In this document: positions 17,343-35,009 of the stretch, piece after piece | Numbering within the stretch: the first letter of the stretch is position 1 | Layout of the letters: each line of letters begins with the position of its first letter | Source: Prochlorococcus sp. AG-463-P14 | GTDB lineage: Bacteria > Cyanobacteriota > Cyanobacteriia > PCC-6307 > Cyanobiaceae | Reading direction: 5' to 3' | DNA: 37,324 nucleotides | Assembly: GCA_003209275.1 (NCBI GenBank) | Contig: QCRX01000006.1 | Coordinates: 1-37,324, forward strand | The notes under the pieces: model-generated | Databases searched by the model: none | The model's input: only the letters and a program-made list of their open reading frames with translations | Told to the model about the DNA's origin: nothing | Program-made: the position numbers and the translations under genes

Positions 17343-17350
17343 TTTTCGAG

Positions 17351-17354
17351 CCTC
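17351..17354 (-). promoter_or_regulatory. Ribosome-binding site fixing the chlG start
   Basis: GAGG on the minus strand lies 8 bases before GTG 17342 and overlaps the petP stop codon (17353-17355). Confidence 0.6.
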
Positions 17355-17577
17355 AGTTATTACTAACTTCGTTTTCGAAGAACCAGCAAGTCGATCCATC
17401 ACTGAGTTCAAGGATTACGCCAATTCCGGTGCCATCGGTCATTTTGTAACCAATGACTTTCCCGCGGGGATCACTCGCAAGCTGCCTTGAGAGATTCCCT
17501 GGGATGCGATCTTTGACTTGATCAAGAAATACCTTGACTCTTGATCCAATTCTGTTAAGGGTGGCAGCCTTGCCCAT
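17353..17577 (-). CDS. petP: Cytochrome b6f subunit PetP-like protein (DUF2862)
   Basis: The 74-residue protein has an SH3-like barrel with the pattern IGSRVKVFLDQVKDR, GKVIGYKMTDGTGIGVILEL and DGSTCWFFENE, as in PetP, a peripheral cytochrome b6f subunit of cyanobacteria and red algae that affects electron transport. ATG 17577 is preferred to the TTG three codons upstream. It heads the petP-chlG-penicillin-binding protein operon and is divergent from hisF with 52 bases between, where both promoters must lie. The family name rests on remembered sequence pattern. Confidence 0.82.
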   Translation of the reverse strand: MGKAATLNRIGSRVKVFLDQVKDRIPGNLSRQLASDPRGKVIGYKMTDGTGIGVILELSDGSTCWFFENEVSNN

Positions 17578-19212: not shown

Positions 19213-20547
19213 TTAACCTAAAATTGTTTTGGTTGGTCTAACTACTTTGGATTTTAAATAATTAGCTAAAAACTTTTTATACTCTTTCTTAACTCGAGTC
19301 ATAACCTCATTCCAATTAGATCTTTCTTGTTGTCGAAATAATTTCATAGATTGGTACCAGAAGCTTTTTTGACTATCAATTTCCCAGCGCCAATCAGGAA
19401 CATCTTTAAGTAATAGCCAAGTTTCCTTGCCAATTCCCCCTGCCAGATGAGCTATGCAGGAGTCAGATGTGATAATCAAATCGCAGTTCTCTATTATCGC
19501 TGAAGTCTCTAGAAAATCCCATTCCTTTGTAATCCTATCTTGGCAACTTACAAACATATCTTTAAAGGAGCAAGACTCAAGTTGCTCTGAACCAAATCCT
19601 TTCTGCAGAGAGACAAAACTAGCAGAGGATTCTTTGGCAATGTTTGATAATGTTTCCAAGGGAAAGGAACGTCCCTTTAGAGTCATTTTCTCAGCATTAG
19701 GATTCCCTTGCCAATTGATACCAATAAGAGGTCTTATTTCTTTTGAAAGTTGAATGCCCCACTTTGAAACAAGTTCTTTTTTTGTTGAAATATAAGACGT
19801 ATTGATTATTGGATTTTTAGGACTTATATCAAGGTACCTTGGTAATGAAAGAAGCGGAATCCAATTAGTACCTGAGACCTCATTCGCTTCTGAAGGAGTT
19901 AAAGGATTTAGGTGTATCTCTGATTCTTTAATAAGGCCATGAAGCACTTGTTGAGCGCAAAATAAGATTTCAACTCCTTCTTCTCTTAGAAAAGGGACAT
20001 AACGCATAAATTGGATAGTATCGCCTAAACCTTGTTCACTAATAATTAGTAATTTGCCAGAAGATTTAATATTAATTCCTTCCCACCTTCTTGACTTAGG
20101 GTATGCATGAGGTCTGGAAGCATCCATTTTCTTCCAACGCCATTCGTAACTTTCAAGTCCAGACTTGTAATTTCCTGATAGAAGTAATACTAGAGAGAGG
20201 TTCCAATTTGCATCTGCATGATCATTCTGTAGAAAGATTGCTGTCTTATAGGATTCAATTGCGGATGTGATTTTTCCTTGTTCTTTAAGAGCATTTCCGA
20301 GGCTATAGTGAATGTTTGGGAAGTTTGGGTTTATCCTTAGGGCTTTTTGATATGAATCAATCGCGGCTTTGAGTTTTCCTTTCTCTTTTAGAGCTGTTCC
20401 AAGACTGTAATAAGCATCTATATAATTTGGATTTCTTCTTAGAGCTTTCTTGTAGAAAGTAATAGCTTCTCTTAAACGACCTTTCTCATGGTGCGATTTG
20501 CCAAGATTGTATTCTGTCTCTGCGAGGACTAGATTTTCTTTGCTCAT
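19213..20547 (-). CDS. TPR protein with C-terminal glycosyltransferase-like domain
   Basis: The 444-residue protein (ATG 20547; the frame extends to GTG 20616) starts with four or so tetratricopeptide repeats (ALRRNPNYIDAYYSLGTALKE, ALRINPNFPNIHYSLGNALKE). It then has the linker typical of TPR-glycosyltransferase fusions (YEWRWKK, WEG, SGKLLIISEQGLGDTIQFMRY) and a GT9/GT41-like C-terminal half with GINWQGNP, FVSLQKG and a CDLIITSDSCIAHLAGGIGKETWLLL segment. The latter is the nucleotide-sugar end of such folds. A role in glycan or protein glycosylation is likely; donor and acceptor are unknown. It marks the start of the surface-glycan island. Confidence 0.82.
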   Translation of the reverse strand: MSKENLVLAETEYNLGKSHHEKGRLREAITFYKKALRRNPNYIDAYYSLGTALKEKGKLKAAIDSYQKALRINPNFPNIHYSLGNALKEQGKITSAIESYKTAIFLQNDHADANWNLSLVLLLSGNYKSGLESYEWRWKKMDASRPHAYPKSRRWEGINIKSSGKLLIISEQGLGDTIQFMRYVPFLREEGVEILFCAQQVLHGLIKESEIHLNPLTPSEANEVSGTNWIPLLSLPRYLDISPKNPIINTSYISTKKELVSKWGIQLSKEIRPLIGINWQGNPNAEKMTLKGRSFPLETLSNIAKESSASFVSLQKGFGSEQLESCSFKDMFVSCQDRITKEWDFLETSAIIENCDLIITSDSCIAHLAGGIGKETWLLLKDVPDWRWEIDSQKSFWYQSMKLFRQQERSNWNEVMTRVKKEYKKFLANYLKSKVVRPTKTILG

Positions 20548-20765
20548 CAAAGAGGATTCTCCACTAATTTTTCTTATCTTGATAGTGTTCTTCAGACTAT
20601 TAAAACACCTAAGCACTTCTCCTAATTAGGCTCATAGATGTATTGTTTCATTTTTAACTATAGTCAAGACGCACTCTCTTCTTTGGATTGATTTAAATTT
20701 AGAATAGAAAATGATTTGGTTTTTATGAAAATCATCCTTAAAATATTTTTAGTGAGCGAGCTTTT

Positions 20766-21569
20766 ATGAAAATTGCTTTTGCCTTCGTAGGTTTTCTAAG
20801 AGACCTTAAATATATTGATGGACTTGATTATAAAATTGATCGTTTGATTGAATCTATTGGCCTAAGCTCTTTTCAAGTAGATGTTTACTATAGTTGCCCC
20901 CATTTGAGCAATGAGTTTGATACGGTCAGCCTCTCACAAGAAGAAATAGAAAACAGCATGAGAGAAAATACAAGATATCCTTTCCTTGTAAAATTAAGGC
21001 ACTATAATCCTTTTAAGTATGTAGAGGCTTGTTTAGAAAACTCTCTCCCTTTCAAGACAAAAACTGATCTTTTCCCAAATAGAATCCTTTCTTTTGTTGA
21101 TTCTTTTTCTCAAACTTCAGCTCTCATTGATTCTAAGAAATATGATTTTGTCGTTTATACCAGATTGGATATGCTTCATGTAATCTATAATTTAGGGCAA
21201 GTTAATATCGATTTAATTAAAGATAATATCTTCTGCTGGAGATCAAATCCATACTTGTCGAGTGAGGAGGCTGAAGATAGGATTATTTTCGGTTCTCCTG
21301 TGTTGATAGATTTACTTTGCAATTATTATAAAGATCTTTTTAAAAATGAGGTAGACCATAAACGTTATTCCAAGTTCTGGTTTCAATCTGAGTATTTATT
21401 AGGCAGGCATTTGGAGAAGTATAAGCCTACTAATATTAATTTGTCCCCACAAGTTGGTGTGGAGCTTGATCAATCTCCATTCCTTGCACAAAAATATACT
21501 AGGAAAACATTCAATAATTACTTTCGACTTTTTAAGGAATATCTTTTGAAAAGATACTCCTTAACCTAG
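20766..21569 (+). CDS. Glycosyltransferase-like protein, unknown specificity
   Basis: The 267-residue protein starts with a strand-like MKIAFAFVGFLRDL and has a YDFVVYTRLDML motif at about residues 127-138. That motif recalls the acidic metal-binding segment of GT-A-like proteins of surface-polysaccharide clusters (pattern YD.V...R.D). No membrane span or signal is visible, so a cytoplasmic enzyme is likely. It is very AT-rich like the rest of the island. Its end overlaps the convergent TPR gene by 9 bases. The function is an inference from context. Confidence 0.6.
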   Translation: MKIAFAFVGFLRDLKYIDGLDYKIDRLIESIGLSSFQVDVYYSCPHLSNEFDTVSLSQEEIENSMRENTRYPFLVKLRHYNPFKYVEACLENSLPFKTKTDLFPNRILSFVDSFSQTSALIDSKKYDFVVYTRLDMLHVIYNLGQVNIDLIKDNIFCWRSNPYLSSEEAEDRIIFGSPVLIDLLCNYYKDLFKNEVDHKRYSKFWFQSEYLLGRHLEKYKPTNINLSPQVGVELDQSPFLAQKYTRKTFNNYFRLFKEYLLKRYSLT

Positions 21570-22535
21570 TGATATTAAAGGTACATCGCTAGCTGAAACT
21601 TTATTTACCTTTTTTGAGGCTAATACCTCAGCCTGACTATATGCTTGAATAGACTCTTCTTTGCGATTTAAACTTGCCAAGAGATCTCCTAGTATTTTAT
21701 AAGTTTCTTCCTCTTCTACAAGGTCTAGAGATTTTTGCAAAGCATCAACTGCATCTTCTTTTTTATTTAATTTCTTTAAAGCAAGGCCAAGCCCTAAGAA
21801 GCTCTCCCAATTCCATTTATCTTCAATCTCCAGAGACTTGCTGAAAGCATCAATGGCTTCTTTTGCTCTGTCTAATTTTGCCAAAGCCAAACCAAGACCT
21901 AAAAAACTTTCCCAACACCATTTGTCCATATATTTTAAAGACTCTCTAAAATTTAATATTGCTTCTTCGTAATTCTCTGACTTGCTTAAAGCCCAACCTA
22001 GTCCTCTATAAACCTCTCCACTTTTTTCGAAATCAAGTGATTTTTTGAAAGCATATATTGAATCAGAATAGAGATCTAATTTATATAATGCTGACGCCAT
22101 TCCGAAAAAGGCATTTCCATTTTCTTTATGCTCTATAGATTGTTGAAAACCTTGAAGTGCTTCTTTATATAACCCTAAATTAATCATTCCCCAACCGTAG
22201 CCTTTATAGATGTCTTTATTTTTTTCAAACGAAATTGATTTTCTGAATGCATTTATCGCTTCTTCATGACGATCAAGTTTTAATAATGACCAGGCTAGGC
22301 CTTGGTAGGTATCACCTCTTTCTTGAATTCTAAGAGACTTTTTAAATGATTCAACGGCTTCTTGGCTAAAACCTGAATTGTATATGGCCCAACCTAGACC
22401 TTGATAGGACTCCCAAGTCTCTGATTCAGTTAGCGAATTCCTAAAAGCCTCAATTGCGCTTTTGTATTGATTGGTATGTAGTAGTTTCCAACCAATTTGA
22501 TGGATACTCTCTTGCATAATTCTTGTCCCTAACAT
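21561..22535 (-). CDS. Tetratricopeptide repeat protein
   Basis: The 324-residue protein (ATG 22535 or 22517) is built almost entirely of about nine TPR-like units with the pattern Y.GLGWA......EEAI..F.KSL. Two neighbouring units (about residues 205-275) are nearly identical, each starting KW.WESFLGLGLAL, which shows a recent internal duplication. No catalytic domain follows, in contrast to the gene at 19213. Such proteins are adaptors; in this setting it probably organises glycan-assembly or surface proteins. No signal peptide is visible. Confidence 0.8.
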   Translation of the reverse strand: MLGTRIMQESIHQIGWKLLHTNQYKSAIEAFRNSLTESETWESYQGLGWAIYNSGFSQEAVESFKKSLRIQERGDTYQGLAWSLLKLDRHEEAINAFRKSISFEKNKDIYKGYGWGMINLGLYKEALQGFQQSIEHKENGNAFFGMASALYKLDLYSDSIYAFKKSLDFEKSGEVYRGLGWALSKSENYEEAILNFRESLKYMDKWCWESFLGLGLALAKLDRAKEAIDAFSKSLEIEDKWNWESFLGLGLALKKLNKKEDAVDALQKSLDLVEEEETYKILGDLLASLNRKEESIQAYSQAEVLASKKVNKVSASDVPLISLG

Positions 22536-22560
22536 ACTTTGCTAGATAGCTAAGGGGTGA

Positions 22561-22637
22561 GAGAATAAATTCTCGGGAATTTTACTGCAAATTGATCAGA
22601 TTAGATGAATGATCTAATAGACAAATTTGTCTTTGCA
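22561..22637. repeat. Cluster of small inverted repeats between two island genes
   Basis: Three pairings lie close together: GAGAA-TAAA-TTCTC (22561-22574), ATTAGAT-GAATG-ATCTAAT (22600-22618) and the palindrome GACAAATTTGTC (22620-22631). TGCAAA (22586-22591) and TTTGCA (22632-22637) could enclose the last two. It could be a structured leader, or chance in AT-rich sequence. Confidence 0.3.
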
Positions 22638-22737
22638 AGAATTTAGCTCCTTGGAAGGTGATGCTTTTAGAATTAGCCCTTTAACTTTTATCTTAACAGT
22701 GATTTAATCAGAATAGAGGATAATTTCATATTGAATC

Positions 22738-23661
22738 TTATTCTTGGCTATAAATTATTCCTATGAGGTGCTTAAAATGTCTTTCATAAATTTCTGATTG
22801 CTCTTCTGCGGTAAAATATAAGTGACTAGCATGTGTGCCAATACTATGGTAATATTGGGCCTCACATGCGAATCTACGAGCAATACTTAAACTCGGTAAT
22901 TTGGCTTTATACTTTATTAAATTACGGCTAAAGAATACGTCTTCGTTTTCATCATATTGAGATTGCTCCCCTTCACATATAGATATCATTAGATCCCTAT
23001 TTCTTATTGACAAGCCACCATTACCTATAGGAACGTCAATATTTTGGTCTTGATTGTATTGCTGTGTAAACCAATAGGAACCGATTTCTTCCAGATTATC
23101 TTTTGAGTATGATGGAAAGAAGGTTTGCCTTATTTGACCTTTTGAGAATGGAGCTCCAATGTAATCATAGTTAAACATTGTGTAATCTAATGGCTCAATT
23201 AAGAGAGAGTCAACTTGCATTATTAATATGTTCTTTACTGGAATATCTTTCCAAAATCTTGGAGATTTAAGTAGCTCATTATAGTATCCTTTGCTAAATG
23301 GCTGATCATCATCTTGGTTTATTTGAATTACCTCTACCCATCGTTCTAAGCCAGAAAGTAATTCCTTGGTAGATGAGAACCTACCGTGAGAAGTATATAG
23401 CCTTATAGAAATCATTAATTTACTCATTAGAATAGTATTGATTATGCAGAATCTCAAAAGTTGACTAGGCCTATCGTCTACTATTACTGCTAAAGAAAAT
23501 TCTTCGAGATTGGAATTTGGACCTTTTTGGAATTTTGTGCTGGTTTCTATAAATGGCTCTAAATATCTTTCAAGTAGATAATATGCATGATTATTAAAGA
23601 TGTTTATCCTATACGATTTCAGTTCATCCAAGAAATCGCTTGGCCCTATTGACACGATCAA
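22738..23661 (-). CDS. DUF5672-type glycosyltransferase-like protein
   Basis: The 307-residue protein has the layout of DUF5672 proteins found in glycan clusters: AVIVDDRPSQLLRFCI, an acidic region ending ILIMQVDSLLIEPL, then YDYIGAPFSKG, IGNGGLSIRNRDLM, ENEDVFFSRNL and a final HSIGTHASHLYF. A GT-A-like fold with the aspartate of QVDSL binding the metal-sugar complex is likely; donor and acceptor are unknown. There is no ATG near the 5' end; TTG 23661 or GTG 23655 must be used unless the gene is 5'-shortened. Confidence 0.7.
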   Translation of the reverse strand: MIVSIGPSDFLDELKSYRINIFNNHAYYLLERYLEPFIETSTKFQKGPNSNLEEFSLAVIVDDRPSQLLRFCIINTILMSKLMISIRLYTSHGRFSSTKELLSGLERWVEVIQINQDDDQPFSKGYYNELLKSPRFWKDIPVKNILIMQVDSLLIEPLDYTMFNYDYIGAPFSKGQIRQTFFPSYSKDNLEEIGSYWFTQQYNQDQNIDVPIGNGGLSIRNRDLMISICEGEQSQYDENEDVFFSRNLIKYKAKLPSLSIARRFACEAQYYHSIGTHASHLYFTAEEQSEIYERHFKHLIGIIYSQE

Positions 23662-23834
23662 GAATAAAAAGATTTATTTATGATACATCTGTTTAGCTTC
23701 ATTAGCCTTGATTCTTAACTTTGCCGTAAAAAGTTTTATCAGAACATGTAGAAGTACCTCTTTATCATTAAGAACTTATTTCTTATGTCAATTTAAATAA
23801 TTAATCATCAAAAAATATTTCAGGTGATACTACT

Positions 23835-24569
23835 CTACTTGTTAGGTGAATCAGTAAAATTAGGATCTAATTCAATTACTTTCGTTAAGGCAATTATTGC
23901 TTCAGGATATTTACCTTTTGATTGTAGTATTGTGCCTAAATTGAAATGAGCCTCTGCAAGGTTGGGAGCTAATTCTATAGCTCGTCTTGTATGAAGCTCG
24001 GCTTCTTCTAAGCAATCCTTTTCTTTTAGAATAGAACCAAGATTCAAATGCGAAATAGCCATGTTTGGACTTAGACTTACAGCCATATAAGCACATGACA
24101 ATGCTTTACCTTCTGTCCCCATTTCTTCGTACGCTTTACTTATATTAATCCAGGCAGTTGCGTAGTAAGGGTCTGCCTTGATTGCGCTATAAAATTTTTT
24201 CAAGGCATCTTTGTAAATCTTTTTGCTCATATCTATTACTCCTAGATTTGTCAATGCAGGAGCATAGTATGGATTTGAAGCCAATGTTTTTAAATACCAT
24301 TTCTCTGCATCGACATTCTTTCCTTCAAGTTGATAGCTTTTGCCAATATCTTTAGTTACTTCAGGGTCCAAGGGATTTAATAAATGTGCTTTTTGTAAAT
24401 AAAGTCTAGCTTCCTTTGTTCGTTTTAAGGAAAGGAGGCTACTGGAAATCACCTTTAAAGCAACTGTAGAACACTTGTCTGTTCCTAAGATGTTTTGGCA
24501 GCATGAAATGGCCTTGTCATACTCCTGACCTTCTAAATATAGTTTTGCAATATCCTCTAAATCTTTCAC
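23835..24569 (-). CDS. Tetratricopeptide repeat protein
   Basis: The 244-residue protein consists of about seven canonical 34-residue TPR units (for example APALTNLGVIDMSKKIYKDA, AHFNLGTILQSKGKYPEAI and the capping LDPNF). The three C-terminal units have the regular A..NLG....G...EA pattern of TPRs fused to OGT-like transferases, but no transferase domain follows. It starts at ATG 24569 and follows the transferase-like gene at 24650-25618 by 80 bases in the same direction. A scaffold role is inferred. Confidence 0.8.
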   Translation of the reverse strand: MKDLEDIAKLYLEGQEYDKAISCCQNILGTDKCSTVALKVISSSLLSLKRTKEARLYLQKAHLLNPLDPEVTKDIGKSYQLEGKNVDAEKWYLKTLASNPYYAPALTNLGVIDMSKKIYKDALKKFYSAIKADPYYATAWINISKAYEEMGTEGKALSCAYMAVSLSPNMAISHLNLGSILKEKDCLEEAELHTRRAIELAPNLAEAHFNLGTILQSKGKYPEAIIALTKVIELDPNFTDSPNK

Positions 24570-24649
24570 ATAAATAATATTGGTAATTTAATCTATCATT
24601 GTTTAATTTAAATATCAATTCTTTTATTAACTAACGTTGTATTGTCAAA

Positions 24650-25618
24650 TCAATCATTAAAGACATTGACTCTATTGGCCTTTGTTACAGTATTTATATA
24701 GCCAATAGTGTTGGGATCACTTCCATAATAATTAATTGTTGGGATAGTTCTGCCTAGGTTTCGTGCCCATTTGTCTAGAACTGATATTACAAACCATATT
24801 GACTTATTCATTGAAAAGTCTGATTCGTAAAGCTCACCTTCATGCATTTTTCGATTAGAAGAAGATGTGTTTACTAATTGACCATAGAGTTTAAATAAAT
24901 GTTTAAGTTGTAAATTAACACCCTGATATAAAATTTGATTTTGGTAATGTTCTGTATACCAATAGTTAGGACTTGAAGGGTCAAGACCTGCAAAGTTGAT
25001 AGTTTTATACTCTAGAATATAACTAAGCGAGAGTGCCCTTATTAGCGAGCATCTGAAATTTAGAATTGCTGGAACGCCTACCTCAGCATATTCCTTTAGA
25101 CTAATAAGGATTGATGAATTATCATGTTCTTCGACAAAATAATAAGGAGGCCAGTATGCATTCTCAGCTGATAAATTTGGATTTAAGTAAGGGTGGTAAT
25201 CTGTAGCCTCTGGATCAGCTAACTGAGGATTCTCTAATACTGCGATATCACTCCTTTCTTGAAGCAATGCGGTTAGATGACTTTGAATTATGTTATCTAT
25301 CATTACTAAGTACTTACTTCCAATTTTCATATCAAAGCCAGTATTTGAACCCATAGGTTCGTGAAAAATGAAAGTTGGAGATCTTCTGTAGGCAATTAAT
25401 GCAGATGTTCCAACTAGATCTGAATCCTTAAGAGGTTGATGTCGTTCAAGACTATTGATTAATGAATCTCCATTGCCGCAAATACAAATGCTATTAGAGG
25501 CCTTAAAAGCTTTTAACATATTAAAGTCTTTTACCAGCCTTGGCTCAGGTGAATGAAAACCTCGTAAAAACTCTGTATAAACTAAAAAGTCATCTGTAGT
25601 CAGATTTAGCTTATCCAT
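24650..25618 (-). CDS. Putative nonulosonate transferase-like protein (GT42/Maf-like), paralogue 1
   Basis: The 322-residue protein starts its core with SICICGNGDSL (GNG at 48-50), followed by GTSALIAYRRSP..IFHEP, ENPQL, a PPYYF segment and FAGLDPSSPNYWYT (211-222). The glycine-rich nucleotide loop and a G(I/L)D motif after a helix resemble the GT42 sialyltransferase fold, also used by Maf (DUF115) proteins that attach pseudaminic or legionaminic acid. It is clearly related to 35010-36014. Nearby CMP-sugar synthesis supports the idea, but activity is inferred. It follows the amidotransferase gene by 169 bases. Confidence 0.55.
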   Translation of the reverse strand: MDKLNLTTDDFLVYTEFLRGFHSPEPRLVKDFNMLKAFKASNSICICGNGDSLINSLERHQPLKDSDLVGTSALIAYRRSPTFIFHEPMGSNTGFDMKIGSKYLVMIDNIIQSHLTALLQERSDIAVLENPQLADPEATDYHPYLNPNLSAENAYWPPYYFVEEHDNSSILISLKEYAEVGVPAILNFRCSLIRALSLSYILEYKTINFAGLDPSSPNYWYTEHYQNQILYQGVNLQLKHLFKLYGQLVNTSSSNRKMHEGELYESDFSMNKSIWFVISVLDKWARNLGRTIPTINYYGSDPNTIGYINTVTKANRVNVFND

Positions 25619-25787
25619 TGGTTTATTTGGCTGGTGTTGTCATTAATAAAAACTGAGCAAGGTCAAGTTACCCGATTTATCCATATAATATAGCTTAAGA
25701 TATATGCTTAGAACTACATATGGATATATATTTAATATATTTTTTTTGCGGAGTTTTATATGAACTAGATTCAATAATTAGCTTTAG

Positions 25788-26918
25788 TTAGAGACCATAC
25801 CCAACTTTATACTTACGGCTATAATCACCTTTTGAATTTATTGTAAAAAGCTCTTTATTTAGCGCCCCATTTTCTACTACTTCCCAAAATTCATCTATTT
25901 CAATATTTATATAATTGCAAAAGCTATGTATATACTTCTCGCTGCATTTACCATCAAACTCTTCCACGATTTTAATACCCTCATCCCTTGAAATAATTCC
26001 TGCCCTGATATCTTCATTTATGTACTCTGTTGTTCTTCCAAATCCAAATTTTAAATATTTAATCATTTGATTCATTGGTGTCCAATCTTCATCTAGAGCT
26101 GTGACTCCAATGTGCTCACCCATTTCCCAAGGCTTATCTTTCCTAATATCAAGGCCTCTTAAAGCGGAATAATTACCATTATTGACTAATGACCAATCTT
26201 TCCAAAAATATCCAAGAAATACTGTTCTTATTCCTCCGCGCTCTATTTCCTCTTCTGTAGGGAATTTGTATTGCTGGATGTTTTTTTCTTTAAATCCAGC
26301 TTTTAATATCCATGAAATATCGCCATCCCCTAGCGTATTTAACTTTCTCAGATTATTCCCATCACTTCCAGTTTTACCCATTACGGTCGTTTCCCCAATT
26401 TGTAGAGCATCATTCTCTCCCCACCAAATTAAAGGTATTTGATAAGTTATTGCTATTCTGGGAACACTGCCATATAGTGCAAGTTCTGTAGACTTGAAAG
26501 GATTTAAATAGTTATAGAAGCAGTATTTCATTAGTTCTCTCCAGATATTTGGAGCTGGATTAATAGTTATACAATCAAAACCTTTGTTTATAAGATTAGA
26601 TATGTTATGTACTCCCCTCTCTGTTATTTGTTGGGGTGGAGCAGCTAGGCAAACTAACAGTGGGTTCATATTCAGTTTTTCTCTTACATAGATAGCTTGT
26701 CGAGTGCTATCTTTTCCACCTGATACCCCAATAATGCAATCATACCCTTTGCTCATATTACTTTTCCCATAGTCAATAATCTCTTTAAGCTCTTTATTGC
26801 GAGCTTCCCAGTCTATTTGTGGCAATGTCAGGTAATAAGCGCAGGCTGGACACAATTTGTCGGAAAATCTTGTATTAGGTCTTGTATCAGGTTGTAGGCA
26901 ATTCTTACAATATTCCAT
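25788..26918 (-). CDS. N-acetyl sugar amidotransferase (WbpG/LegX/PseA-like)
   Basis: The 376-residue protein has an N-terminal zinc ribbon (C4, C7, C23, C26) and a PP-loop ATPase motif GVSGGKDST (64-72), as in sugar amidotransferases. These use ATP and ammonia from a glutaminase partner to turn an acetamido group into an acetamidino group on bacillosamine-, mannuronic- or nonulosonic-type sugars. The middle WWGENDALQIG and the MIKYLKFGFGRTTE segment fit the family. The HisH/HisF-like glutaminase partners often next to such genes are absent here. It follows the aminotransferase by only 6 bases, so both belong to one operon. Confidence 0.85.
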   Translation of the reverse strand: MEYCKNCLQPDTRPNTRFSDKLCPACAYYLTLPQIDWEARNKELKEIIDYGKSNMSKGYDCIIGVSGGKDSTRQAIYVREKLNMNPLLVCLAAPPQQITERGVHNISNLINKGFDCITINPAPNIWRELMKYCFYNYLNPFKSTELALYGSVPRIAITYQIPLIWWGENDALQIGETTVMGKTGSDGNNLRKLNTLGDGDISWILKAGFKEKNIQQYKFPTEEEIERGGIRTVFLGYFWKDWSLVNNGNYSALRGLDIRKDKPWEMGEHIGVTALDEDWTPMNQMIKYLKFGFGRTTEYINEDIRAGIISRDEGIKIVEEFDGKCSEKYIHSFCNYINIEIDEFWEVVENGALNKELFTINSKGDYSRKYKVGYGL

Positions 26919-26924
26919 GGTTAA

Positions 26925-28253
26925 TTAATTTAACCTTTTGAATCCAGAATTGCATACAGGTCCTTCTAATAGTGAATCAATATCCTGCCCATCCTCACAA
27001 TTTGCAATTAACTTATATACATTGTCCAGATTCTCTAAGTAATTATCTATAATATTCTTTTTATGCTCTGTGCATATGTAACATAGAGTAGATGCTAAGT
27101 AACCTTTTTTGAGCATTTCTTGAGCCACTAACGTTTTATATTTTAAATTAGATTCACTTTTAAATGAATACCCTGTTAAGGATGGAATTCCGAAAATATC
27201 AATCTCAATATTGTGATCTATAGCCATCCTAGATATAGATTCTCTTAGCTTAACTCCTGTACTGGTAACCTTTGTCCAACTCTCCTCTTCTTCCATTACT
27301 TCTAGTGTTTTTAATGCTGCACAAGGACCAATTCTTTCCGTCCAAAAGGTACTACTTATGAATGTACTCTGAGCTGACTCCATAACACTTCTTCTTCCTA
27401 ATATAGCTGTTATAGCGTAACCATTGCCTAAGGCTTTGCCGAAAATAGCCATGTCAGGCTCAACGTTATATTTAAGGTGAATGCCTCCTAATCTCTCTCG
27501 AAAACCTGACGTACATTCATCAAAAATAAGAACAATACCCTTTTTATTACATAATTTTCTTACTGCTTCTAGGAATCCAGGAGTTGGCGGAATAGATCTT
27601 TCTACTTCCATTTTAACAGCAGCCAAGTCATATTTATTTGCAATCAATTCCAATTGATCAAGTCTATTAAATTCAAAAGCATGTACTGAATTTATTAGAC
27701 TCTTTGGGACTCCTGTGGCATCTAGTCCCGGGAGTAAATGATCCGCAAGTTCAGAATTATTTTTTAGATTACACGCAAGATACCAATCATGCCATCCATG
27801 ATAACCACAAATAGCTATAGCCTCTCTTCCCGTGGCTGCACGTGCAATTCTTATGGCGATTGCATTTGCTTCGCCACCAGTTCTAGCAAATTTGACCATT
27901 TCTGACCATGAATGAAGTTTTATTAGGTTCTCAGCCAGATATACTTCTTCACTACAATTTAATGTCGACATGTTGCCTTTCTTGATGACATCTTGTACCG
28001 CTTTATCAACTTTTTTATTTCCATAGCCAAGAACATTAGTTCCAATTCCCATAATACTCATATCTATATATTTATTCCCATCTAAATCCCATATATGGCA
28101 TCCTTTAGCTTTAGAAAAATATGCTGGCCAATTGTCTGGTAGGAACATTTCAGGCCTTTTTGATAAAAGCATATTTCCACCAGGAATTAATTCTTTGGCT
28201 TTAATCCATAGATTTTGGCCTTTTGATTTAGACGTATCATTTTTTTCTGTCAT
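26925..28253 (-). CDS. Class III aminotransferase, glutamate-1-semialdehyde aminomutase-like
   Basis: This PLP enzyme (442 residues from ATG 28253) has the usual layout: IPGGN, WDLDGNKYIDM, FARTGGEANAIAIRIARA, CGYHGWHDWY, the cofactor aspartate in VLIFDECTSGFR (D245) and the Schiff-base lysine in IFGKALGNGY (K273). The best-known relative is HemL, but the diverged sequence and glycan operon suggest a sugar substrate, probably a keto sugar or nonulosonate precursor. ATG 28253 overlaps the upstream stop as ATGA and is preferred to ATG 28265. It is translationally coupled to the aldo/keto reductase before it. Confidence 0.85.
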   Translation of the reverse strand: MTEKNDTSKSKGQNLWIKAKELIPGGNMLLSKRPEMFLPDNWPAYFSKAKGCHIWDLDGNKYIDMSIMGIGTNVLGYGNKKVDKAVQDVIKKGNMSTLNCSEEVYLAENLIKLHSWSEMVKFARTGGEANAIAIRIARAATGREAIAICGYHGWHDWYLACNLKNNSELADHLLPGLDATGVPKSLINSVHAFEFNRLDQLELIANKYDLAAVKMEVERSIPPTPGFLEAVRKLCNKKGIVLIFDECTSGFRERLGGIHLKYNVEPDMAIFGKALGNGYAITAILGRRSVMESAQSTFISSTFWTERIGPCAALKTLEVMEEEESWTKVTSTGVKLRESISRMAIDHNIEIDIFGIPSLTGYSFKSESNLKYKTLVAQEMLKKGYLASTLCYICTEHKKNIIDNYLENLDNVYKLIANCEDGQDIDSLLEGPVCNSGFKRLN

Positions 28254-29140
28254 TTGATAAGCCATTCTCTTGGGTCTAGATCATTTGAATTTTCCCAAGA
28301 CCATAACTTATAATTAAATTTATTCGCTAAAGTTGAAACTCTTTCCCAGGATGTCACTATATCTGTAAGTTCCGCAAGACTTGTCGTACCTACTATAACT
28401 GCTTCTATGTTAGGTATATGAAATAGAAATGATAGTGCCTCGTCTAGCATTCTCCCATTTGAACCATGAATTTTCTCTGAAATCTTCGCATGATGTTCTC
28501 TGAATTCCATTGATAGGTTACTAGGCCATTGACTATGAGGGACAAGAATCAAACCTTGTAAGAAAGCACTTCTTGAATGGATAGCGATTCCAGCGTCAGT
28601 AAGTCTTTCAATAGCCCCATTGCGAAGCATCCTTTGGTCATATATAGAGAGAGGCAACTGAACTAACTGGAATCTTTCTATTGGAATCCTACTTAACTCA
28701 TCAGCTTCATAAATAGATACCCCCATACGATCTATTAAGCCTCTTTCTCTTAAACTCTCCATCCATTCAACAAGGATGAATCCTTTGTCAGTGCAAATAT
28801 CTGATGAACTATGAATTAATAATGAATCTATTTTTTTTAGATTCAGATTTAATAGACTTTTACGAAACAAATCTTCCCATATCTCTTTAGAGTATAGATT
28901 CAAATTACGTTGACTTTGCAATTTTGTCATCAACTTAAATGAATGCTTTGATGGTAGGTTCTTGCCGAGAATCTGTTCGGAAGCTCCATAAGCCTGTGCA
29001 GTATCAATATATGAAATATCGCATTCTTCAGCCTTACATAGAATTTCTTTAACTTGATTATCGAGTAGTTTTCCTCCCTTATTTGTTATCCCATAGTCCA
29101 GTCCAAATTGAGCGGTCCCTAGTCCAAGCTTTGGAGACAT
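28250..29140 (-). CDS. Aldo/keto reductase
   Basis: The 296-residue NAD(P)-dependent reductase has a TIM-barrel layout and the catalytic tetrad visible as D46 and Y51 (YIDTAQAYGASEQ), K73 (KLMTKLQ) and H110 (SLLIHSS), with a cofactor segment near IEAVIVGTTSL. The start LGLGTAQFGLDYGI is typical of a subgroup in nonulosonic-acid and other surface-sugar clusters. It is the first gene of the minus-strand reductase, aminotransferase, amidotransferase operon and would reduce a sugar intermediate. The precise substrate is not readable from sequence. Confidence 0.87.
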   Translation of the reverse strand: MSPKLGLGTAQFGLDYGITNKGGKLLDNQVKEILCKAEECDISYIDTAQAYGASEQILGKNLPSKHSFKLMTKLQSQRNLNLYSKEIWEDLFRKSLLNLNLKKIDSLLIHSSSDICTDKGFILVEWMESLRERGLIDRMGVSIYEADELSRIPIERFQLVQLPLSIYDQRMLRNGAIERLTDAGIAIHSRSAFLQGLILVPHSQWPSNLSMEFREHHAKISEKIHGSNGRMLDEALSFLFHIPNIEAVIVGTTSLAELTDIVTSWERVSTLANKFNYKLWSWENSNDLDPREWLIK

Positions 29141-29281
29141 CGTTTAAATCCAAATCAATATTTATACTCTCTATTATTTTAGCTCTAGGCCCTATAAACG
29201 AGTAGAATGCTCGGAAATCAAATTTTCATTCACTATTGCCATAATACTTCATGGCAGATGTTCTTAGTTCCAATTTAGCTC

Positions 29282-30073
29282 ATGTCATCCAAGTCTAAAT
29301 TTAAATTAGACTCTATTGAAAAAATAGAATTACCATATAATCTTCTCTTTGATCATAAATCTGAGTCTAAATGTTGGTATTTAGCCAGGTCGTTATCAGG
29401 AGGTATTTTATTCTCTATCTATGAGAGTGGACATATAGTCCACTTTTCAGAGAAGAATGGATTTACATATTTTCCTAACAAAATAGACTTTATTCATGGA
29501 TTGTACGAGACAAAAAAATATATCTTAGCATCTAGATTCAGGAGAAATGAAATATTAATACTTAACAGATATGACGCTAGCATCGTAAGAAGTTTTAAAA
29601 CGCCAGGCAGATCACCTATTAATGCATTCATTGGGGATGAAAGCATTACATTCATTGACTACACTAATTCATGTTTAGTTGAAATCTTATTAAAGTCTGA
29701 GCAGCATAAAGTCTATTCTGAGATCTTAAAGCAAAGTCAACACCCACATTGCCTATATAAAGACAAAAAAAGACAATTAATTATAACCCAAAAATTTCCC
29801 CATATCCTTATTATAGAAGATTATAAGTGTACCTTTAGTTTTCCTCTCCCTCAAAAAGGAAAATGGTTTTCTTTGTGCCCAATAAATGAACATTATATAT
29901 TAGCAACACATTTAGAAACGGGCCTTTATTTGCTGAATATAATGAACCCTTCAATTGAAATCATCTTGAGTGAGGCCAATCTTACAGGTGTTATCACGAC
30001 AGAGGACGATACCTTTTATGCTATAAACCGGGATGCAGAGTATATCTACCGTATTCAGTTTGAATTTATATAA
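29282..30073 (+). CDS. Unknown protein with beta-propeller-like repeats
   Basis: The 263-residue protein (ATG 29282) contains about five or six weakly repeated beta-rich units of 40-45 residues with an I..HF / L.NRYD / I.FIDYTN / LYLLNIMN / FYAINRD pattern. This is suggestive of an NHL- or WD-type propeller blade series. No signal peptide, membrane span or catalytic motif is seen. It is divergent from the aldo/keto reductase (141 bases) and convergent with the fucosyltransferase-like gene. A sugar-binding or scaffold role is conceivable, but I do not recognise the family. Confidence 0.55.
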   Translation: MSSKSKFKLDSIEKIELPYNLLFDHKSESKCWYLARSLSGGILFSIYESGHIVHFSEKNGFTYFPNKIDFIHGLYETKKYILASRFRRNEILILNRYDASIVRSFKTPGRSPINAFIGDESITFIDYTNSCLVEILLKSEQHKVYSEILKQSQHPHCLYKDKKRQLIITQKFPHILIIEDYKCTFSFPLPQKGKWFSLCPINEHYILATHLETGLYLLNIMNPSIEIILSEANLTGVITTEDDTFYAINRDAEYIYRIQFEFI

Positions 30074-30150
30074 ATGTATTTTGCATTCTCTTTGTTCTTT
30101 AACCAACAATAGCCTCTCTATTTTATTGATTACTTAGTACTAGCGTAAAA

Positions 30151-31080
30151 TCAAATTTGAATAAATCCCCTATTGTTGATTGTAGGGTTTTCAATGGGAC
30201 CATCGCTCAGAGAAAAAGCTTTTTCATGGTTACCCAAATAAGCTGCCATATAAGAATATGTACTATTCCCTAGGATAATATATTTTGATTCTATCATTAG
30301 TTTAAAATGGTCGACATCATTAGTATTTATAAGAAGATCTTCTCCCTTATCTAGGTGCAAATGTAACTTCCTACCTTTTATCTTTTCAATTAAATAGTTT
30401 AGTTCAGAAGAACTATGTGCTTGTGTGAATATGTGAACGTCTATATCTTTAGGAAGATGATTTTCTAGTATATAAGGGATTTTCTTTGCTTGTAATTCTG
30501 GATCTACTAACAGATTATTTCCTTTCCCTGCATCACCTCTCCTTAGATGAATAGCTACAGTCTGCTTCTGTTCAATATTTGATACTAGATATATTTTCCT
30601 GATTTCCGAGAGGTAGCAACCAATTAATCTTCCGAGTATTCCATCAAGAAAGTTGAATGGAAGATCTATAACTGTAGGGTAAGCTCTGTCAGCATAAATA
30701 ATGCTTAATTCATTTAGGGCGTCAATGATACTCTTTAATTGACCAGTGGTTTTACATGATTTATTGGATAGAGATAATTCTATGTTATTAAAATTAGCGT
30801 CTCCATCTAAACTTTTATTCTGTACGAAACTTCTTGCATATTTTGAGGATCTGAAGTAACTATTGAAATCTTCACTACAAAATACTGGCTCTCCTTTTAT
30901 ATTAGATATTATATTCCAGTCAATACAAGAATTGAAATTCTCCGCTCTAAATAAATATCTCCCTCCATAAAACCCACAACCTGAAATCTTTGCAAGAATA
31001 TAAGCGGTTAGAAAATTATAGCTTTGATGCCCAAACCGACCATATGGCTCTTGCTGTGCTCTAAGTATAAGATTATTCAT
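30151..31080 (-). CDS. Fucosyltransferase-like protein (GT11-type)
   Basis: The 309-residue protein begins GRFGHQSYNFLTAYILA, a variant of the GR.GNQ..QY start of GT11 alpha-1,2-fucosyltransferases. It has the donor-binding motif VAIHLRRGD near residue 176 and a late ILGNSTYSYMAAYLG segment matching the S.SS.S..AA.L motif. It would transfer fucose or a related deoxysugar from a GDP donor onto surface glycan. The N-terminal deviation (H for N) leaves donor specificity open. It starts at ATG 31080 and is divergent from the CMP-sugar synthetase gene. Confidence 0.72.
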   Translation of the reverse strand: MNNLILRAQQEPYGRFGHQSYNFLTAYILAKISGCGFYGGRYLFRAENFNSCIDWNIISNIKGEPVFCSEDFNSYFRSSKYARSFVQNKSLDGDANFNNIELSLSNKSCKTTGQLKSIIDALNELSIIYADRAYPTVIDLPFNFLDGILGRLIGCYLSEIRKIYLVSNIEQKQTVAIHLRRGDAGKGNNLLVDPELQAKKIPYILENHLPKDIDVHIFTQAHSSSELNYLIEKIKGRKLHLHLDKGEDLLINTNDVDHFKLMIESKYIILGNSTYSYMAAYLGNHEKAFSLSDGPIENPTINNRGFIQI

Positions 31081-31328
31081 TCTCTTAGAATGGTTTTACA
31101 TAGATAAGCATATCGTCAGTATACTTATAATTGATTAAATTATAGTATTACAACTCTTCAGCCGCAAATAAAAGCCTTGACCTTCCCAACATACCTATTT
31201 CATCGGATAACCATAATTGAATATTAATTATATAAATCTTATTTACCTTGCAATTGCTTTTCCCTGCTATTAAGATTATCTAACCGCACCTTTAGAAGTA
31301 ATTCACTTACCATTTATTATCCACTCTA

Positions 31329-32066
31329 ATGACCCCAAAAAATATTTGCCTTATTCCAGCTCGTGGAGGCTCAAAGCGAATACCCAGAAAAAATATTAAG
31401 CCATTCCATGGCAAGCCATTGATTTCATGGTCTATTCAAGCAGCTATTTCATCAGGCCTATTTGACAACATCTATGTATCTACTGATGATGAGGAGATTG
31501 CGTCAATTGGAGAAGAATATGGAGCGATTATTCCTTTCATTAGGCCTAAAGATATTGCTAATGACTATGCCTCAGATTTAGATGTAAGGAATCACTTTAT
31601 TGATTGGTCTAAAAGACATAATATTCCATATGATTTCCTTTGCTATTTATATCCAACAGCTCCATTTGTTCAATCTAGCACTTTGATAGGTTGCTTAGAG
31701 AAGCTTTTGACAACAGAAGCTACTTGTTCTTTAACAGTTTCAACTTCTAAATTTCCTATATTACAGTCTCTTATAGAGGATAGTGATGGATTTCTTGACT
31801 ATTTGTGTGAATCTTACAAACACCTACGAACACAGGATTTGCAACAAACTTGGTTCGATGCAGGCCAATGCTATTTCTTTAATATGCAGAGATATAATCA
31901 GCCAGAAAAACGAATTGGCTTTCCAGTCCCACAATATTTAGCCCATGATATAGATACACTAGATGATTGGTACTTAGCCGAATTAATCTTTACAGCTTTA
32001 AAATCCAGAGGGTGGGACTCTACAACAGATTACTCTTTAGCGAAACTCTTATTAAATCAACAATGA
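31329..32066 (+). CDS. pseF: CMP-nonulosonate cytidylyltransferase, PseF-like
   Basis: The 245-residue enzyme starts with ICLIPARGGSKRIPRKNIKPF, the CTP-binding signature of CMP-sugar synthetases. It continues with GKPLISWSI, GLFDNIYVSTDDEEIA, YPTAPF, TWFDAGQCYFFN and a final HDIDTLDDWYLAE. The DAGQ.Y and D.DT.EDW elements are closer to PseF (CMP-pseudaminate) than to NeuA, so an acidic nine-carbon sugar is activated here. No NeuB/PseI synthase or PseB/PseC genes are in the window. It is the clearest indicator of nonulosonic acid in the island's glycan. ATG 31329 lies behind a 248-base gene-free spacer. Confidence 0.85.
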   Translation: MTPKNICLIPARGGSKRIPRKNIKPFHGKPLISWSIQAAISSGLFDNIYVSTDDEEIASIGEEYGAIIPFIRPKDIANDYASDLDVRNHFIDWSKRHNIPYDFLCYLYPTAPFVQSSTLIGCLEKLLTTEATCSLTVSTSKFPILQSLIEDSDGFLDYLCESYKHLRTQDLQQTWFDAGQCYFFNMQRYNQPEKRIGFPVPQYLAHDIDTLDDWYLAELIFTALKSRGWDSTTDYSLAKLLLNQQ

Positions 32067-32170
32067 AGCTCATTTGTTTGCCTCGATTCATCATACATAT
32101 TAAAGGTTAAGTACAAGGGCTTTACGAATGGATTATCTGCTATACCTTATAGTTATTAATCTCCATCACT

Positions 32171-32389
32171 ATGGACCGCGAAAACAAATATATTCGAATC
32201 CCCACCCCTCTTAAAAGAGAGTCTAAGGCGTATAAATCATATAAATTGATAAATTTAATCGATATGCATAAAAAGTCTATTGAAAGAGAAAAAAAGAAAC
32301 TTGGCATTAATCAATATGGTATGCTCTGGATCCAATTCTTTAGGGGAGCATTTTTAGCAATTGTCTTTGAAAGGATTTTATTCCACTGA
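32171..32389 (+). CDS. Small conserved-type protein with C-terminal hydrophobic segment
   Basis: The 72-residue protein (ATG 32171) is basic and helical at the start (IPTPLKRESKAYKSYKLINL, then a KKSIEREKKKLG stretch) and ends with a hydrophobic segment (MLWIQFFRGAFLAIVFERIL) long enough for one membrane span. The regular composition argues for a real gene. The arrangement suggests a small membrane-anchored protein with a cytoplasmic basic part. I do not know its function; it is probably unrelated to sugar synthesis. Confidence 0.55.
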   Translation: MDRENKYIRIPTPLKRESKAYKSYKLINLIDMHKKSIEREKKKLGINQYGMLWIQFFRGAFLAIVFERILFH

Positions 32390-32426
32390 TCTTTTTTTGT
32401 CAGAATTAACTAATACTTTTACTTCT

Positions 32427-33290
32427 TCACTTATCCACGTTTATCTTTTTGATAGTTGATATGACTTTAATAAATAATATTGGGATACCAGATCTTCCGA
32501 TGAACTTAACAGCACTATAAATGATAGTCTTAAAACTAAAATTAGTTATTATTTGTGTTAATGGTTGAATCAAATTTAAGCAGTAGATTAATAGTCCAAG
32601 TTCATGTTTTGACATTATATGATATCTAGACAGAGCATACCGAAAAGTTTTTAGCAGTGATCCTTGTGATGAGTGATGGTAGATTTGAATTCTTGGCTCG
32701 ATCACTATTTCCCATTTATTGCGAAAAATCCTAATCAATAAGTCTGTCTCATCATTCGATATGTATATCGAATCTGAGCCAGGACCTATATTTATGTCAA
32801 ATATATTAGGCATCACAGACTCAATTAATTCCTGCCGGAAGAACATATGAGAAGTTTCTGCTTTACATCTAAATATATCTAGTATATTTAGTATCCTTTT
32901 CCCTTTCTTTATAACATTATTCATGCCAAGATTCTCTTTCTTTCTACCTACTACACAATGGCATAATTTACTCTGATCAAAGAAGTTCAAAATCTCATCT
33001 ATTGTACCTGGTAAATATCTACAATCATCATCTGGGAAGCTAACTATATTACCTGTTATATACTTTGCTCCATAATTTCTAGCTCTGCAAACACCTTTAA
33101 AATTAACTCTGTGATATTTTATAGGTATATAAATTTTCCATTTCTTTAATATACTATCTAGGAATCCCTCCTTATTTTGATCAACTATAATTACTTCTTT
33201 TGGTAACACTTTTTGTTTAGCAATTGATTCTAGAAATAAATCAACTTCTTCAATTCTATTCACAGTGCAAAGTACCAGACTTACTTCCAT
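32427..33290 (-). CDS. Family 2 glycosyltransferase
   Basis: The 287-residue GT-A enzyme starts EVSLVLCTVNRIEEVDLFL, has PKEVIIVDQ, then GVCRARNYGA and the metal-binding aspartate motif VSFPDDDC at about residues 88-95. A later DETDLLIRIFRNKW segment holds the ED-type acid, and a hydrophobic C-terminal part could associate with the membrane. It adds a sugar from an NDP donor during surface glycan synthesis. Its target is unknown. Start ATG 33290; it is divergent from the O-antigen ligase-like gene. Confidence 0.88.
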   Translation of the reverse strand: MEVSLVLCTVNRIEEVDLFLESIAKQKVLPKEVIIVDQNKEGFLDSILKKWKIYIPIKYHRVNFKGVCRARNYGAKYITGNIVSFPDDDCRYLPGTIDEILNFFDQSKLCHCVVGRKKENLGMNNVIKKGKRILNILDIFRCKAETSHMFFRQELIESVMPNIFDINIGPGSDSIYISNDETDLLIRIFRNKWEIVIEPRIQIYHHSSQGSLLKTFRYALSRYHIMSKHELGLLIYCLNLIQPLTQIITNFSFKTIIYSAVKFIGRSGIPILFIKVISTIKKINVDK

Positions 33291-33518
33291 AATGATTACG
33301 TTTCTCTAATGCTATCAAAAACTATAAATAATGAAAGCAATATAGCTTTATGGCCTTACCACAATATTCATATGGGATAGCTTTTGTTGCTTTTGTTGAA
33401 CAATTAGATTACGTATTGACAAGTAACTAGTTTTAAGGTCTACTGTCTTTACATAGATTTTACGTGGGATGAATAAATATTTCTTCTCCGCGCTATTAAG
33501 AGGACTTCACCCTTGGCA

Positions 33519-34796
33519 ATGACCGATAGGATGTTGCCTCCAAAGAAACTATTTGAGAATGTATTAAACATTCCATTGATCCTTGAGTCAACAATACTTC
33601 TTACACTATTTGGCCAGCCTTTATTTTCTCTTGTTGCTTTCCAGCTCGGATTGCCAAATCGACTCGCCATGATTCTTATGCGAGGTTTTATTTCTTTAAT
33701 ATGCATATCTGGGCTGTTCAAGATTTTTTTCAAATCGAGCAAATATAAATTCAATTCCGTCTGGGTTTTAATGCTTATATTCTTCTGGACTCAATATTTC
33801 TCACGAATTATTTTTGGAGTCACCTTTCACGATGTTTCTAGTGCTATTCCTTTATGGGAGTTATTTGCATGGGGATTAGGTAGTTCTCTAGTTTTAGGTC
33901 TGTCAGGTTATTTTCTTACACTTCACTGTACGTTCAATGCTTCAATAAATACTATGCCTTTATCAAGTACATTGAGTAATAAAGGCCTTTTAATCCTAGG
34001 ATCCTCAGCACTTCTTTTTGGATTCAACCCTGGATATGGCTCTCCATACTTTGGTTTGCCAGATCTAAATCCTATACCAGCTGGACATGCAGCGGCTTCG
34101 CTAGCTCTGCTTGGAATATGTGTAATTTTTACAAAACTAACCGAGAAACATATTACCTCATTTTCACACTTTTTATCAGTGGGACTAGGAGTTTTCCTTT
34201 CAGCATATAGCGGCACTAGGGCTGCAGCATTAGCATTACTTGCTCCATTTATTTGCTTTATTTTTGCAGCAAAAAAGTTGAATTTGCGTGTTAGCAAGAT
34301 TATTTCTTATTTGTCTCTCGCTATTTCTACTTCAATAATTCTCATTTCTTATCTTCTTTTCGCCTCACCAGAACTTAGACAAAAAATTATTTCTACGGGG
34401 TTTGACCCAAACTCCGTACAAAGATTGCGGATGATTCAGTTGAGTTTAGATCAATTCATATCAAATCCTATTTTTGGGGCAGGTTTCAGAGTTCATACAG
34501 ATATACAGAACTTAGCTTCTTCTTGGGGTGAAAGTATTTTCTATCCCCATAACTATTTAGTTGAGGCTCTTTCTATAGGTGGGGTTCTAATGGCTATTAC
34601 CCTGTGTTATTGCTGGTATCAATCCTTACTAAATCTTACAAGAGCAGTTAGAATTAATCCTCAATTTCTTTGGATACTTTTTCTTTTCATACAATCAACA
34701 ATATATTCAATGTTTTCAGGTCATCTGGGAGATGTACCTACATTCTGGCTGATGTTAGGAATAGGCAGTGGGCTAAAGGCTTCATCCTCTACTTAG
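33519..34796 (+). CDS. O-antigen ligase/polymerase-like membrane protein (Wzy/WaaL family)
   Basis: The 425-residue protein has about ten hydrophobic spans and, in a long loop before the last spans, the Wzy_C-type motif YPHNYLVEALSIGGVL (HN followed by E and GG). This is the segment that characterises O-antigen polymerases and WaaL-type ligases. Such proteins polymerise repeat units or attach finished glycan to lipid A core in the periplasm. It is the only polymerase/ligase candidate in the window and probably handles the glycan made by this island. ATG 33519 is preferred to TTG 33513. Confidence 0.82.
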   Translation: MTDRMLPPKKLFENVLNIPLILESTILLTLFGQPLFSLVAFQLGLPNRLAMILMRGFISLICISGLFKIFFKSSKYKFNSVWVLMLIFFWTQYFSRIIFGVTFHDVSSAIPLWELFAWGLGSSLVLGLSGYFLTLHCTFNASINTMPLSSTLSNKGLLILGSSALLFGFNPGYGSPYFGLPDLNPIPAGHAAASLALLGICVIFTKLTEKHITSFSHFLSVGLGVFLSAYSGTRAAALALLAPFICFIFAAKKLNLRVSKIISYLSLAISTSIILISYLLFASPELRQKIISTGFDPNSVQRLRMIQLSLDQFISNPIFGAGFRVHTDIQNLASSWGESIFYPHNYLVEALSIGGVLMAITLCYCWYQSLLNLTRAVRINPQFLWILFLFIQSTIYSMFSGHLGDVPTFWLMLGIGSGLKASSST

Positions 34797-35009
34797 TCAT
34801 AATATTTTCTCAAATTCTTATCTAGAGCTTTTAACACAAAATACCCTTTCCCTATACATTAATAATCCTTTCTCTTGCTAGAATTTTATACAACCTTATA
34901 CTCATAAAAAAAATCAGCTTTCATTAACAGCATTGACTAAGGATTGATATCAATTCTTCCTGCGACAGAGGTGATGACTTTTTACGCATTATTTGACTAT
35001 TAATCGGTT

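Follow-up and report, generated by a model that had tools for sequence, protein, structure and literature searches.

A conserved reductase and class III aminotransferase gene pair in Prochlorococcus as a probable amination module of nonulosonate pathways

The contig QCRX01000006.1 of Prochlorococcus sp. AG-463-P14 (assembly GCA_003209275.1), 37,324 nucleotides long and referred to here as the window, makes up the whole of contig C6 in an assembly that totals 1.14 Mb and is 64% complete. Its minus strand encodes an aldo/keto reductase (AKR), a class III aminotransferase (AT) with the fold of glutamate-1-semialdehyde (GSA) aminomutase (GSAM) and a WbuX-family amidotransferase. The first two of these are very probably, to judge from the comparisons described below, a pair that adds an amine in the tailoring of nonulosonates (NulOs). 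The reading frames of all three genes are open, and they are placed as follows.

28250..29140, minus strand: aldo/keto reductase of the NulO module, 296 aa; PF00248, 83.8 bits
26925..28265, minus strand: class III (GSAM-fold) aminotransferase of an unnamed NulO-linked subfamily, 446 aa; PF00202, 146.3 bits
25788..26918, minus strand: WbuX-family N-acetyl sugar amidotransferase (acetamidino former), 376 aa; TIGR03573

A first-pass annotation of the same DNA had placed the three genes at these coordinates with a 4-base overlap and a 6-base gap, and both were seen. The AKR stop and the AT start share 4 nt (ATGA) if the AT begins at an internal ATG at 28253, which is its likely start, and the overlap becomes 16 nt when the longest AT open reading frame (ORF) is taken; the AT and the amidotransferase are 6 nt apart. 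Such tight spacing is a weak sign of joint function, since another pair of minus-strand ORFs in the window (14581-16392 and 16389-17411) likewise shares 4 nt. The trio sits among many glycan-type genes inside the low-GC part of the window (32-36% at 20-36 kb, versus 39-44% before that), and this stretch of about 20000-36000 is a probable surface-glycan island.

Four AKR residues that we take to be the catalytic tetrad of the family (D46, Y51, K73 and H110) are each retained in 59 of 61 aligned AKRs, comprising that of the window and the best AKR match of 60 loci. KidO, the best NCBIfam match of the AKR, was rejected as an identity at 137 bits of a 244-bit cut-off. The AT has Aminotran_3 as its sole Pfam match at E 0.001, with no match to the DegT family (PseC/LegC type), and its best named NCBIfam models are of the GSA-aminomutase type and are reached at about half of their cut-offs (at best 266 bits of 486). 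K277 (446-aa ORF numbering), presumably the lysine that binds pyridoxal phosphate (PLP), is retained. The predicted AT model (mean pLDDT 87.3, pTM 0.88) finds its nearest solved folds in GSAM, FumI and PctV, and the aminoglycoside enzymes GenB3 and GenB4 are also among the 50 matches listed, so that sugar-acting class III enzymes are known. The nearest named relatives of the AT come from Synechococcus and Prochlorococcus single-cell genomes. A phylogeny, which the first-pass annotation had proposed as a check, was built from 102 rows with a quick IQ-TREE run and SH-aLRT supports. It separates the AT family (89 rows) from HemL (13 rows) at SH-aLRT 100 and groups the window AT with nine cyanobacterial rows, all nine in NulO context, at SH-aLRT 99. 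Deeper branching is not well resolved, with 49 of 99 inner branches below 80 and four rows on long branches. The refutation that the annotation had tied to such a tree, an AT placed with true HemL, did not come about.

The gene-neighborhood survey, proposed in the same place, covered the best 80 of at least 567 confirmed AT relatives in a genome collection. These are near kin of the window AT (56-67% identity) and no unbiased sample, and the organism names of loci from metagenome-assembled genomes (MAGs) may be wrong; the BLAST panel was drawn from the genome of the window, six relatives and two plasmids. Of the 80, 28 have flanks too short for the 6-kb count and were left out of it; the other 52 extend more than 6 kb to either side of the AT, and 43 of these adjoin NulO core genes, a core locus being one with NeuB, PseB or PseC within 6 kb. 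SpsF and NeuB are each present in 42 core loci, AKR in 41, PseB in 34, PseC in 32 and PseG in 28, followed by GNAT (15), PseF (6), HisH (5) and HisF (4). The remaining nine well-flanked loci consist of L081, with AKR and SpsF and no core gene, and eight loci of catabolic kind. In a control set of 20 HemL-type loci, of which 18 span about 20 kb and the other two 3.6 and 5.9 kb, not one partner gene turned up. Spacing within the core loci is close: SpsF lies directly upstream of the AT and ends at most 200 nt from its start in 41 of the 43, and AKR ends at most 300 nt upstream of SpsF or SpsF-AT in 35. Stop-to-stop ORFs that join SpsF and AT number 46. The order PseB-PseC-(GNAT)-AKR-SpsF-AT-PseG-NeuB, whole or partial, recurs in loci whose titles name cyanobacteria, Bacteroidota, Pseudomonadota, Chlorobiota and Verrucomicrobiota, and in one archaeal MAG.

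By this gene content, AKR and AT appear as a widespread, unnamed module of NulO pathways, not an oddity of one genome. The window pair belongs to it by the clade of its AT and by the adjacent AKR; SpsF is not beside its AT. That the three genes act together, as had been suggested, is well backed for AKR and AT because this pair stays together across phyla, but does not extend to WbuX, which occurs in 3 of the 43 core loci. The related suggestion that a class III enzyme stands in place of PseC or LegC fails: PseC-like genes accompany the AT in the 32 loci counted above, and one is present in the genome of the window, so that the AT would be an additional amination and not a PseC replacement.

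Across 99 genomes, the AT is found at 45% identity or more in seven, that of the window included; other matches listed, at 27-36% identity, represent HemL-like proteins or further class III enzymes. All seven AT-positive genomes fall among the 39 with a NulO-synthase match above 100 bits (Fisher p 0.001), and PseI scores above its cut-off in five of the seven versus 10 of the 92 others (p 0.0007), although kinship among the 99 genomes means that these p values overstate independence. For each of the six further AT-positive genomes, the 20 kb fetched contains AKR together with one or more of PseB, PseC and NeuB. A Pseudosulfitobacter plasmid carries pseB-pseC-AKR-GNAT-hypothetical-(SpsF-AT)-pseG-pseI, with SpsF-AT as a unit, and 8 of 299 genomes sampled from one flavobacterial family (that of a Polaribacter locus) are AT-positive. 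AT matches in phage records reach at most 31% identity among the matches listed (20 of 41). Viral contigs gave 71 AT loci, one at 49% identity and the rest at 24-40%. The former (L130, 7223-9296 of the predicted viral contig IMGVR_UViG_3300025120_013964) has a NeuB-like gene, the AT and GNAT, and it is possible that it represents NulO tailoring on a virus or a contig wrongly called viral.

Further pathway genes lie elsewhere in the same genome. PseI (489.4 bits versus an equivalog cut-off of 340.25) and a PseC-like gene (53% identity) are on contig C20, two further NeuB-family genes are on contigs C38 and C9, and an SpsF-like gene is on C38. The window itself carries a cytidylyltransferase gene.

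31329..32066, plus strand: PseF, pseudaminate cytidylyltransferase; TIGR03584, 233.4 bits (cut-off 205.7)

This PseF may take here the role that SpsF has in other module loci. In B. subtilis, genetic evidence connects SpsF with the late steps of the legionaminate route, for which it is the proposed cytidylyltransferase (PMC7439481). The C20 region (L030, 9084-12645) consists of PseI, a formyltransferase-looking ORF (10134-10733) and PseC, a set that could possibly yield N-formylated pseudaminate. A second NulO region on C38 (L031, 1448-8994) holds SpsF-like, glycosyltransferase-like, NeuB, WbuX, HisH, HisF/WbuZ-like and second WbuX genes, and a paralogue, cut by the contig end, of the window protein encoded at 24650-25618.

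The amidotransferase is a clear WbuX-family member, at 295.6 bits on WbuX/TIGR03573 (cut-off 203.2), and it matches structure 8wex at E 3.4e-33. It has the TIGR03573 family, the SGGKDS PP-loop and two CxxC pairs in common with the enzyme of that structure, the N-acetyl sugar amidotransferase (NASAT) LpNASAT (8WEX; PMC10607449). The NASAT motif in the same paper is an SGGxDS PP-loop with a tetracysteine CxxC-Xn-[GN]xCxxC; the cysteines of the window protein are C4, C7, C23 and C26, and K, not G or N, stands two residues ahead of the third.

No glutaminase partner (HisH/HisF) lies next to the window WbuX, as the first-pass annotation had observed. The hisF gene of the window (17630) was rejected as a dedicated partner, because its score (363.7 > 294.55) marks it as the histidine enzyme; its shared use by WbuX is conceivable. 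Genome-wide, the absence does not hold. On C38 a WbuX that is 68% identical to that of the window is followed first by HisH and a HisF/WbuZ-like gene and then by another WbuX. This HisH is the sole match in the assembly and scores as ordinary HisH (212.5 versus 105.4), and the HisF-like gene falls under every cut-off (WbuZ, 245.3 of 299.7; HisF, 199.6 of 294.55), so that the assignment of this pair as WbuX partners rests on position. Ten of the 80 AT loci carry WbuX, and eight of these ten have HisH and HisF as well, which suggests that an acetamidino step recurs in such clusters. The ten WbuX proteins are 23-31% identical to that of the window, one over 123 residues only, and the window WbuX is therefore no fixed partner of AKR and AT.

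A different setting of the same AT family is seen in 15 of the 80 loci, which are without PseB, PseC, NeuB, AKR and PseG; one of them, L083, has a PseF-like gene. A NanA-like gene is present in 11 of the 15 (that of L087 is 35% identical to that of L099, and in L091 the gene is 9 kb away), and the four loci without it (L083, L098, L100 and L106) have at most 2.4 kb of sequence upstream of the AT; L100 carries NanE and NanK. The NanA of L099 passes one equivalog (290.4 versus a cut-off of 281) and fails another (249.5 versus 382), its NanE scores 282.6 against a cut-off of 189, and its kinase is NanK-like, below cut-offs. The ATs of the catabolic loci are 57-60% identical to that of the window, and 13 of the 15 form two clades within the AT family (7 rows at SH-aLRT 100 and 6 rows at SH-aLRT 99). 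Operons composed of ABC transporter, NanA, (NanE-NanK) and class III AT genes occur in L088, L092, L095, L097, L099, L102, L103, L105 and L108, mostly alphaproteobacterial loci, and M81/MlrC, class IV aminotransferase, DapA-like and PhyH genes adjoin many of them. The operons are likely to consume NulOs by use of the same AT family, and our guess is that their AT strips an amine. The occurrence of ATs in NulO-breakdown operons gives independent support for a NulO-type substrate.

From what was observed (the genes present and their families, the conserved operon, an AT clade of its own, and the link to genes of NulO synthesis and breakdown), we infer a substrate, a carbon, an order of steps and an ammonia source for the module. 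The PseB, PseC, PseG and PseI steps would yield a 5,7-diamino NulO, whose C8 hydroxyl the AKR would turn into a ketone and the PLP-dependent AT would then transaminate. The product would be 5,7,8-triamino-3,5,7,8,9-pentadeoxynonulosonate (8-amino-pseudaminate). CMP activation would fall to SpsF in most loci and here probably to PseF, WbuX would convert one N-acetyl group to acetamidino, and its ammonia would perhaps come from the HisH/HisF-like pair on C38. A role of AKR and AT as a NulO-tailoring amination pair is, at the level of sequence, the firmest part of this scheme and very probable, and it agrees with the earlier proposal that the GSAM-like class III enzyme, set among NulO genes, probably makes a non-standard amino sugar. 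C8 as the aminated position, drawn by analogy, is the favored choice with real room for doubt. We put the explanation as a whole, an AKR and AT amination module of a pseudaminate-type pathway acting at C8, at roughly 0.6.

Besides the anomeric hydroxyl, the only free hydroxyls of Pse5Ac7Ac are those at C4 and C8. C8 is favored because an EpaA-like SpsF-AKR layout precedes SpsF-AT and because EpaA and EpaB act at C8. The layout is that of two SpsF-AKR fusion ORFs directly before SpsF-AT, L041:7574-9301 (titled Massilia) and L061:3337-5037 (titled Chitinophagaceae), whose domain order equals that reported for EpaA. EpaA consists of CTP_transf_3 and Aldo_ket_red and, with the dehydrogenase EpaB, gives the 8-epimer of pseudaminate (PMC12053666); the comparison is one of domain order, and the system differs from the module in that a short-chain dehydrogenase takes the place of the aminotransferase as second enzyme and the product is an epimer. 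The pseudaminate cluster of Vibrio B9-25K2 encodes a bifunctional SpsF-AKR protein, like the SpsF and AKR of the module, but a dehydrogenase comes next and the available text does not mention a class III aminotransferase (PMC7371886). The literature searched, with most subscription papers beyond reach, gave, among the matches listed, no assignment of biosynthetic genes for 8-amino-NulOs, no assigned function for an AKR-SpsF-AT module and no title on NulOs in picocyanobacteria.

Precedents for 8-amino sugars come from Shewanella, in which KdnA is the aminating enzyme of Kdo8N, and from Tenacibaculum maritimum, the present name of Flexibacter maritimus. The Kdo8N route follows the same logic, with C8 of an ulosonate oxidized by KdnB and then aminated; unlike the module, it uses an iron-type alcohol dehydrogenase and the eight-carbon substrate Kdo (PMC5125639). 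An 8-amino-NulO is present in the Flexibacter maritimus O-polysaccharide (PMC3210612), and the available part of the Tenacibaculum maritimum genome paper names no O-antigen genes. The closest gene arrangement is that of the Aeromonas group I flagellin islands IA-IE, described as pseB-pseC-"alpha/keto reductase"-pseF-"class III aminotransferase", then pseG and/or others and pseI (PMC7874193). These are the gene kinds of the module with pseF in the place of SpsF, a likeness in the kinds of genes described, and the available text reports the reductase and aminotransferase as gene content without a function and subgroups IF and IG as without the pair. The flagellin sugar of A. hydrophila AH-1, a strain that its authors cite to exemplify small islands for only one NulO, weighs 403 Da, and some of its fragments differ by one m/z unit from those of a pseudaminate derivative (PMC4691044). 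A mass that is odd agrees with an odd nitrogen count, and 8-amino-Pse5Ac7Ac with a glyceroyl group comes to 403.159 by arithmetic only. In the parts of the literature available, Aeromonas caviae flagellin carries ordinary pseudaminate, and work on Leptospira NulOs names extra aminotransferases with no class stated.

Several observations weigh against the module acting as proposed. No PseB scores above its cut-off in this genome, which is 64% complete, and the window has neither SpsF nor NeuB. AKR is missing in 2 of the 43 core loci (L109 and L114), SpsF in one (L076), and no PseC was detected in 11. Two AT-positive genomes (G052 and G059) have NeuB-family matches only, below the PseI cut-off, and the backbone therefore need not be pseudaminate everywhere. 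On a Halorussus plasmid, Gfo/Idh/MocA and not AKR stands ahead of SpsF-like and AT genes near NulO genes. With respect to C8, two AKR searches found no EpaA-like sequences in the phage collection, the available text of PMC12053666 does not settle which of EpaA and EpaB is the oxidizing enzyme, and the authors' top formula for the AH-1 sugar, C19H32O9, has zero nitrogen (PMC4691044). C4, too, remains a candidate position.

Amination elsewhere on the NulO or its precursor, for example at C4 of the NulO or on the hexose before PseI, is the strongest alternative, an unlikely one that still carries some weight. The operon contains all steps, hence gene position does not fix the carbon, and lyase and hexosamine enzymes lie near the AT in catabolic operons. 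We know of no natural 4-amino-NulO, which counts against C4. The EpaA-like SpsF-AKR layout points instead to C8 (PMC12053666). The joined SpsF-AT ORFs, for their part, suggest a nine-carbon over a six-carbon substrate.

It is less likely again that AKR and AT serve to form or alter an N-acyl substituent (amino- or hydroxy-acyl) and not the sugar chain, an idea to which the action of many class III enzymes on amino acids lends some credit. NulO amines do bear varied acyl groups, such as 3-hydroxybutyryl (PMC3210612), but the frequent union of AT and cytidylyltransferase in one ORF fits a sugar substrate better. That the AT is a GSAM or an ordinary amino-acid aminotransferase lying here by chance can be dismissed almost entirely: it shares the GSAM fold and, distantly, GSAM sequence, and its best named matches are of that type, but it stays below the GSAM-named cut-offs (266 of 486, 214 of 398 and 206 of 527 bits), forms a separate clade from HemL, has replaced the segments SSPVR, SGTEA, FEGCYHG and GTLSGNP that are typical of HemL (three HemL rows), has a gene context common to none of the 20 HemL-type loci, and coexists in its own genome with a HemL-like gene on contig C63 (32% identical to it).

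Elsewhere in the low-GC stretch are glycosyltransferase genes and genes of O-antigen-ligase type, together with TPR proteins and DUF5672. The window gave no matches in Rfam and tRNA scans, and promoter-like sites (9, against 22.4 in shuffles) and terminator-like sites (2, against 2.2) are not above chance. Downstream of WbuX lies one further gene.

24650..25618, minus strand: uncharacterized protein; no Pfam family above cut-off

This protein has no NCBIfam match, and its model, a poor one (pLDDT 48.2), gave no fold match at E 0.001. It has relatives at 35010-36014 of the window and on contig C38 (L031 8206-8994; 50% identical). All three have in common a GNG stretch and a GL(D/E)PS(S/T)PxxWYT motif, and neither relative has a Pfam family above cut-off. 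A faint resemblance of the three to CST-type glycosyltransferases is an impression only, and a role of the 24650-25618 protein as a glycosyltransferase of the same glycan is a guess.

The proposed function of AKR and AT would provide a role for an aminotransferase whose closest score is to GSA aminomutase, and it proposes genes for a sugar of published structure, the 8-amino-3,5,7,8,9-pentadeoxynonulosonate. A broader and more tentative view is that AKR-SpsF-AT could be a general route to 8-amino-NulOs in many phyla and some archaea, that in NanA-type operons of marine alphaproteobacteria the AT family may run in reverse to consume such sugars, and that amidination in this Prochlorococcus might create an unusually cationic sialic-like acid. 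The module would allow 8-amino-NulOs to be predicted from genomes, and the catabolic loci suggest a matching consumer pathway in the ocean.

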